NCBI GenBank assembly: GCA_001003725.1
Contig: LCPR01000004.1
Coordinates: 1 to 44,546, forward strand
Length of the DNA stretch: 44,546 nucleotides
Direction of reading: 5' to 3'
Source: Candidatus Saccharibacteria bacterium GW2011_GWC2_48_9
Lineage (GTDB): Bacteria; Patescibacteriota; Saccharimonadia; Saccharimonadales; Saccharimonadaceae
The position numbers and the translations under genes are program-made. The first letter of the stretch is position 1; each line of letters opens with the position of its first letter. This document shows positions 13,156 through 14,349 of this stretch, one piece after another. The notes beneath the pieces are model-generated. The model worked only from the letters and a program-made list of their open reading frames with translations. It did not search any database and was not told the DNA's origin.

Positions 13156-14043
13156 TCAGCTTGCTGAGTTTGATGAGCCTGGTTTTCTGTGCGTATCTAG
13201 AATTTTATTTACTTCTGCATCCGCAAGCGTATTGAATTCTCGTCGTACATGCACAAACCTCACGTCCTCAAACTGAGCCAACAAATCAACAATACGCTCA
13301 TTAATAGGCCACAACTCCCTATTCTTAATGGTATAGATACCTTTCATCTGATTGACCACCATCAAGCTATCGAGACGATACTCAAGTCGTCGATATCCCA
13401 GCTCAAGCGCACGCTCTAAGCCGAGTAATAAGCCTTGATACTCTGCTTGGTAACTTGTGGTAATACCGAGAAATACTCCACCTTTTTCAATCACCGTTCC
13501 ATCTGGGTTCTCGAGAACATATGCCGCTGCCGACTCACCCGGATTGCCTCGTGATCCCCCATCTGAATACATAATATATCTACTATTCGATGTATTTATA
13601 TCATCGATAGTAACAGTTTTGATTATAGATTCATCTGTCGATATATTTTGCTCACTTAAACCAAGCAGTACTTGTGATGATTCAGTAATATCTCTATGTT
13701 GTATTTTAGACTTACTTTGCCAAATTGCTTTATCGTAATTTTCACTCAATGAAACTGTCGCGGTGTCGACCGTTACGAGATATACAATGAAGACATATTG
13801 CAGCCCGTGGTCATCTGGATCGATATACGAAATGACGTCGAAAAGCTGCACAGAAACCGGTGCCAGACCAGCGTCTTTCACCAAGTAGCGCCTCAAAGCA
13901 TCTTCGGGCTGCTCACCATGTTCAATCTTACCACCTGGTAATTCAAACTTTCCAAGAATAGAAGCGCGACCATTGGCTCGGCGTATGAGTAAAGTTTGAT
14001 CATTTCTGCGGACTAGCGCCCGTACTGCAGTACGTTGTTTCAT
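13156..14043 (-). CDS. Nudix-domain/RNase HI fusion protein with degenerate Nudix box
   Basis: 295 residues in two domains. Residues about 1-140 have the Nudix fold, with box G38-KIEHG-E44 then R52-YLVKDAGL. The three glutamates of the canonical REUXEEXGU motif are Y53, K56 and D57, so pyrophosphohydrolase activity is doubtful. Residues about 153-285 are RNase HI with acidic residues D161 (YSDGGSRGNPG), E201 (QAEYQGL), D225 (RLDSLMVV) and D275 (NTLADAEVNK), all intact, so RNA-DNA hybrid cleavage is likely. It sits between tRNA-Pro and rnpB on the same strand, and the three may share transcripts. Confidence 0.85.
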   Translation of the reverse strand: MKQRTAVRALVRRNDQTLLIRRANGRASILGKFELPGGKIEHGEQPEDALRRYLVKDAGLAPVSVQLFDVISYIDPDDHGLQYVFIVYLVTVDTATVSLSENYDKAIWQSKSKIQHRDITESSQVLLGLSEQNISTDESIIKTVTIDDINTSNSRYIMYSDGGSRGNPGESAAAYVLENPDGTVIEKGGVFLGITTSYQAEYQGLLLGLERALELGYRRLEYRLDSLMVVNQMKGIYTIKNRELWPINERIVDLLAQFEDVRFVHVRREFNTLADAEVNKILDTHRKPGSSNSAS

Positions 14044-14086: not shown

Positions 14087-14162
14087 TGGTCGGGATGACT
14101 GGACTTGAACCAGCGGCCTCACCACCCCCAGCGGTGCGCGCTACCAACTGCGCCACATCCCG
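14087..14162 (-). tRNA. tRNA-Pro (anticodon GGG)
   Basis: Acceptor CGGGATG/CATCCCG, discriminator A, encoded CCA. The anticodon stem CACCG/TGGTG encloses loop CTGGGGG with anticodon GGG. T-arm is GCTGG-TTCAAGT-CCAGT. It lies 43 bases upstream of the Nudix-RNase H gene on the same strand. Confidence 0.95.
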
Positions 14163-14173
14163 TTTTTTAGTAC

Positions 14174-14313
14174 AAAAAGTCCAGGACCGGCGCTTGATAT
14201 ATCCCCGCGCATGTGCAAGGTGGGTTATCTCACAGCGTCTCCTCAGAGACACAGAATGTTGAATTCCCTATCAAAATGACGTTAGGAAATCATATACGCC
14301 GACTTCCTGGACA
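14174..14313 (-). ncRNA. Candidate structured small RNA, unknown family
   Basis: About 140 bases on minus. The predicted start falls on the first base of a closing helix: GTCCAGGA (14305-14312) pairs with TCCTGGAC (14179-14186), extended inside by CGGCG/CGCCG. The 3' helix strand is followed at once by TTTTTG, as in an intrinsic terminator. Inside are three hairpins: TTTCCTA/TAGGGAA, an imperfect stem topped by GTCTC-TGAG-GAGAC, and a CCC/GGGG stem. I find no SRP core (GGAAG with GCAGCC) and it does not look like the long rod of 6S RNA. It is preceded by a good promoter. Function unknown. Confidence 0.55.
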
Positions 14314-14319
14314 CCTCTT

Positions 14320-14349
14320 ATTATACACCCTATGCAGCGCGCAAATCAA
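14320..14349 (-). promoter_or_regulatory. Promoter of the 14174-14313 RNA
   Basis: TTGATT (14344-14349), 18-base spacer, TATAAT (14320-14325) on minus. The -35 overlaps the stop codon of the M50 protease gene. Read-through could also supply tRNA-Pro. Confidence 0.65.

Follow-up and report, generated by a model that had tools for sequence, protein, structure and literature searches.

6S RNA (SsrS) is typically about 180 nt long. It mimics a promoter in the open state and attaches to holoenzyme, RNA polymerase that contains the primary sigma factor, and a short product RNA transcribed from it leads to its rearrangement and release (PMC9130861). Ms1 of Actinobacteria came to notice through its resemblance to 6S and was shown to bind core polymerase only; it is about 300 nt long and possesses extra hairpins at both ends (PMC9130861). 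A search of one library of open-access papers found no relevant paper on 6S RNA in Saccharibacteria, Patescibacteria or the candidate phyla radiation. One literature match for '6S RNA' was discarded, as the term there means SRP RNA.

The window analyzed here is the whole stretch of 44,546 nt from Candidatus Saccharibacteria bacterium GW2011_GWC2_48_9. Judged from sequence comparison and covariation, its minus strand very probably encodes the 6S (SsrS) RNA of Saccharibacteria, with its own sigma-70-type promoter and a rod fold. A preliminary description had noted a structured RNA of 140 bases at this place and had considered that it fits neither SRP RNA nor 6S RNA. The observation was confirmed and the interpretation overall is partly supported. 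The predicted features are listed in the table.

Predicted features of the RNA locus in the window, with the evidence on which each is based
Feature	Position	Strand	Basis or remark
6S-like RNA, ~140 nt	14174..14313	(-)	start 14313 predicted; R2 match, fold energy, homologues
-35-like hexamer TTGATT, spacer 18 nt	14344..14349	(-)	consensus match only, alone not significant
-10 box TATAAT	14320..14325	(-)	box kept in homologues
Closing helix P1, 5' arm GTCCAGGA	14305..14312	(-)	sequence; own-versus-swapped arm test
Helix P2, 5' arm	14296..14302	(-)	both sides change in all 7 pairs
Central bubble, 5' strand ATATGATTTCCTAACGTCATTTTGATA	14269..14295	(-)	strong sequence conservation; possible weak hairpin
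P4-P5, 5' side GGGAATTC, within 6S motif UAGGGAG	14261..14268	(-)	motif; covariation analysis
Terminal hairpin GTGTCTC-TGAG-GAGACGC	14235..14252	(-)	both sides change in all 7 pairs
P5-P4, 3' side and 6S motif ACCCACCT	14216..14230	(-)	motif; covariation analysis
Central bubble, 3' strand with hairpin CCTTGC...GCGGGG	14194..14221	(-)	98.5% of cells paired
Helix P2, 3' arm	14187..14193	(-)	covariation
Closing helix P1, 3' arm TCCTGGAC	14179..14186	(-)	sequence; own-versus-swapped arm test
tRNA-Pro(GGG)	14087..14162	(-)	16 nt past closing helix; possibly co-transcribed

A discrete structured RNA with a predicted promoter of its own was confirmed at 14312-14179 (-). The closing helix, which had been described as perfectly paired, is composed of 8 perfect pairs between GTCCAGGA and TCCTGGAC with 118 bases between the arms. 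On the minus strand the 7 bases AAGAGGT separate TATAAT from its 5' arm. The start of transcription had been predicted to fall at this helix, and the homologues agree with it: among those with a clear helix, its start is mostly situated 6-7 nt past the -10 box. TATAAT was found exactly in 88 of 110 homologues and as a near match in a further 21. Among distant loci, a -10 box with at least 5 of 6 positions matching was observed just upstream in 12 of 20, against 2.0 expected. The promoter scan by itself was uninformative, with 4 sites found against 5.3 expected. The RNA is about 140 nt long here and mostly 130-160 nt among family members with a clear closing helix.

The agreement of promoter, fold and T-run put forward in the preliminary description stood for the fold and the conserved box and was weaker than described for the T-run. 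TTTTT lies at 14178-14174 directly 3' of TCCTGGAC; it is short, is often missing in relatives and was not scored as a terminator. T-runs were not enriched in loci without a following tRNA compared with loci which have one, and the T-run was rejected as a terminator.

The RNA proved to be widespread in the family. Homologues were found by blastn in 18 of the 61 genomes searched, the window's own genome counted, and a covariance model, R1, was constructed from 18 family homologues for a core of 115 positions. R1 detected the RNA, with one copy per genome, in 137 of the family's 151 genomes and in 101 of 105 when only genomes at least 90% complete are considered. All four sampled members of genus g10 (G012, G092, G117, G131), two of them at least 97% complete, showed no R1 match, and the RNA may be lost in this genus or too diverged.

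The predicted folding energy of the 140-nt stretch is -53 kcal/mol, whereas shuffled versions average -37 (z -3.8), and none of 200 shuffles was as good. The closing helix was analyzed at a fixed distance from the -10 box, with arms swapped between genomes as control. Arms from the same genome gave a mean score of 8.7 against 5.6 for swapped arms, and a score of at least 7 was reached by 90 of 109 own-genome arm pairs compared with 17% of swapped pairs. In the inner structure, 91% of cells were paired across 100 aligned sequences, which also contained 623 cells with double-sided changes against 166 in shuffles. The covariation score of 0.507 compares with 0.192 for shuffled alignments, none of 500 shuffles was as high, and sliding controls remained at or below 0.093. 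The closing helix and three inner helices show heavy compensatory change, the inner support coming from P2, P5 and the terminal hairpin. Absence of such changes from the closing helix in relatives had been named beforehand as evidence against the fold; they are abundant. The three GGG:CCC pairs show almost no variation. The hairpin on the 3' side varies little in the family and has the form CCUGG...CCAGG across the phylum.

Between P2 and P4 lies a stretch with strong sequence conservation and no convincing covariation. A helix GAUA:UAUC and a 5'-strand hairpin were tried as fixed elements and rejected, the former being paired in 75-78% of cells and the latter in 87%, with changes which mostly break pairs. 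Since the candidate helices of this stretch are mostly broken by changes, an open bubble describes it better, and the lack of convincing covariation is expected for a bubble. From the multibranch fold with three internal hairpins proposed earlier, the terminal and 3'-side hairpins were retained; neither the 5'-side hairpin nor the GAUA:UAUC helix was. The RNA is modelled as a rod in which closing helices P1 and P2 are followed by a large central bubble and then by a terminal stem, and the covariation supports this 6S plan.

Relationship with 6S RNA was analyzed by model comparison. Rfam model RF00013 had no listed match in the window, whatever the E-value, and at the RNA locus only chance matches were found even at E 10, so the link to 6S runs through intermediate sequences. 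In divergent relatives, RF00013 weakly matched the R1 locus in 5 of 14, and no other family covers that place. A second covariance model, R2, was constructed from 20 loci defined by RF00013, with the window excluded and R1 not used in the selection; of these 20 loci, 16 fall short of the gathering score of RF00013, and roughly half of the 20 are R1 loci too. Wherever two models matched the same genome they marked the same place and strand: R1 and RF00013 in 18 of 18 shared genomes, R1 and R2 in 83 of 83, and R2 and RF00013 in 29 of 29. R2 matched the window at 14175-14315 with 53 bits and an E-value, rough as for all home-made models, of 4.7e-11, with nothing else in the 44.5-kb window scoring better than E 0.96. 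It also recovered 58 of 58 further loci defined by R1 or blastn. On E. coli K-12 ssrS it gave an end-to-end match at 484-667 (annotated 484-666) with an equally rough E of 1.8e-7. R1 gave no match on E. coli ssrS, and therefore the bridge to 6S needs R2. The agreement of the models in place and strand, together with the R2 matches on the window and on ssrS, argues that the RNA is 6S by descent.

The features by which 6S RNA is recognized point in the same direction. The homology runs via intermediates, the closing stem, bubble and terminal stem are all found, and the RNA shares with 6S the signature UAGGGAG...CACCCACCU, whose motifs flank the bubble, as well as the 3'-strand hairpin. The usual 6S length of about 160-200 nt, which is not strictly defining, is not reached at about 140 nt. 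On these comparisons the RNA is a short, strongly diverged relative of the known 6S family, and its gene is real and well conserved. The exclusion of 6S in the preliminary description did not hold; it is understandable because RF00013 itself misses this form. A significant match to a known family had been set there as a finding that would refute the reading, and a link of this kind was found through the intermediates, though the direct RF00013 search of the window was negative.

A relative of 6S by ancestry or by shape may also work like Ms1, binding and storing core polymerase without sigma as in Actinobacteria. Ms1 itself was at first taken for a 6S look-alike (PMC9130861), and the polymerase form bound cannot be read from sequence. 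At about 140 nt, the present RNA is far from the Ms1 length of about 300 nt and lacks the extra end hairpins, the 6S motif is kept and the matches are to models derived from 6S, which makes an Ms1-like role quite improbable. That the RNA is a new structured RNA unrelated to known families, the view first taken, fits the Rfam search at E 10, which gave only tRNA and chance matches in the window. This view is contradicted by the full positional agreement with RF00013 in relatives and by R2 matching both the window and E. coli ssrS, and it is very improbable.

The neighbours named in the preliminary description, tRNA-Pro, a Nudix-RNase H fusion and RNase P RNA, were all found again. The upstream gene encodes a family M50 peptidase, and tRNA-Pro(GGG) follows downstream, and then the Nudix-RNase H fusion; Rfam matches nearby are tRNA-Pro, RNase P RNA and tmRNA. 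Among the 109 family loci, 45 have a tRNA on the same strand within about 125 nt past the core, always tRNA-Pro(GGG) and mostly at 20-45 nt. This arrangement, with the tRNA 16 nt downstream here, would suit an element that acts as leader of, or in the processing of, tRNA-Pro or the Nudix-RNase H gene, with no independent RNA. More than half of the family loci have no tRNA in the examined stretch, yet they retain promoter and fold, and many distant relatives likewise do not keep the gene order; the probability of such an element is close to nil. For the 6S RNA itself, the T-run, being short, no richer where the tRNA is missing and not scored as a terminator, makes read-through into tRNA-Pro plausible. 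The sequence suggests that in some genomes the RNA and tRNA-Pro may be carried on a joint transcript, which would be split by RNase P making the tRNA 5' end.

Two further features of the neighbourhood were observed. The protein encoded at 13156-14043 (-) has an N-terminal Nudix and a C-terminal RNase H-like domain, and this fusion recurs in other Saccharibacteria. Between 9632 and 14313 (-), tmRNA, RNase P RNA, tRNA-Pro and 6S are situated on one strand within about 5 kb, a notable cluster of stable-RNA genes.

SRP RNA, for which the genome otherwise has no detected candidate, was rejected with practical certainty, as already judged in the first description, because the SRP signature is absent, RF00169 and RF01854 are unmatched and a search of the genome for proteins containing an SRP54/FtsY GTPase domain was negative.

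Search for the SRP pathway gave a separate observation. PF00448 (SRP54/FtsY GTPase) had no match in this genome, which is 97.75% complete, and 14 of 14 control genomes were positive. Among 40 relatives, PF00448 gave only short, weak matches of P-loop type, and SRP RNA over the cut-off was found in 0 of 41 genomes. The SRP pathway in the order looks lost or unrecognisable.

Across the phylum, R1 matched 94 of 380 sampled genomes. RF00013 gave 30 matches in the same 380 genomes, and four of them (G211, G379, G449 and G343) were over the cut-off. Combination of R1, R2 and RF00013 placed the RNA in 161 of the 380. Almost every copy in the phylum escapes the standard 6S profile, and the analysis provides a model better suited to annotation of these genomes. 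The global transcription brake formed by 6S seems to be retained in tiny, mostly host-dependent bacteria with genomes of about 1 Mb. As some Saccharibacteria are cultured, the RNA may offer a handle on how cells idle when they are detached from the host.

By analogy with known 6S RNAs, the bubble would mimic melted promoter DNA and the RNA would sit in the active site of the polymerase that bears the primary sigma factor and lower transcription under shortage of nutrients or of the host cell. On return of nucleotides, the 5' bubble strand would serve the polymerase as template for a short product RNA, synthesized leftwards, and the complex would dissociate. If synthesis starts, as in known cases, where the 5' bubble strand has its inner edge, the product RNA would reach the 5' end of this short RNA after about 20 nt. 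Polymerase binding, product RNA and physiological role are all inferred from this analogy.

The Saccharibacteria form might also be a functionally distinct 6S variant, with a release switch formed by UUUUCC:GGGGAA and a 3' end generated by RNase P cutting a joined tRNA-Pro, which is considered rather unlikely. The alternative pairing is 81-98% compatible but nearly invariant. If such a variant exists, the unusually conserved 5' bubble strand would re-pair with the 3' strand, the release switch would differ from the E. coli one, and the RNase P cut would tie the supply of 6S to tRNA processing.

Among known systems, Ms1 has in common with the Saccharibacteria RNA a 6S-like shape with a central bubble (PMC9130861) and differs in its length of about 300 nt, its extra end hairpins and its binding of core polymerase, whereas the Saccharibacteria RNA has about 140 nt and no such hairpins. 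The other 6S RNAs of the phylum, such as those of G211, G379, G449 and G343, possess the same core motifs and match R2; these four lie over the RF00013 cut-off while the Saccharibacteria form lies under it. With 6S/SsrS (RF00013; E. coli ssrS, B. subtilis 6S-1) it shares the rod with closing stem, bubble, 3'-strand hairpin and terminal stem, the motif UAGGGAG...CACCCACCU, a single-copy gene with its own predicted promoter, and homology by intermediate models. It differs from 6S/SsrS in having about 140 nt instead of about 180 nt, in falling under RF00013 detection, and in a long, strongly conserved 5' bubble strand (AUGAUUUUCCUAA...) in which support for a hairpin is weak. Its neighbour in Saccharibacteria is tRNA-Pro, while in E. 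coli this place is taken by the fau/ygfA gene.
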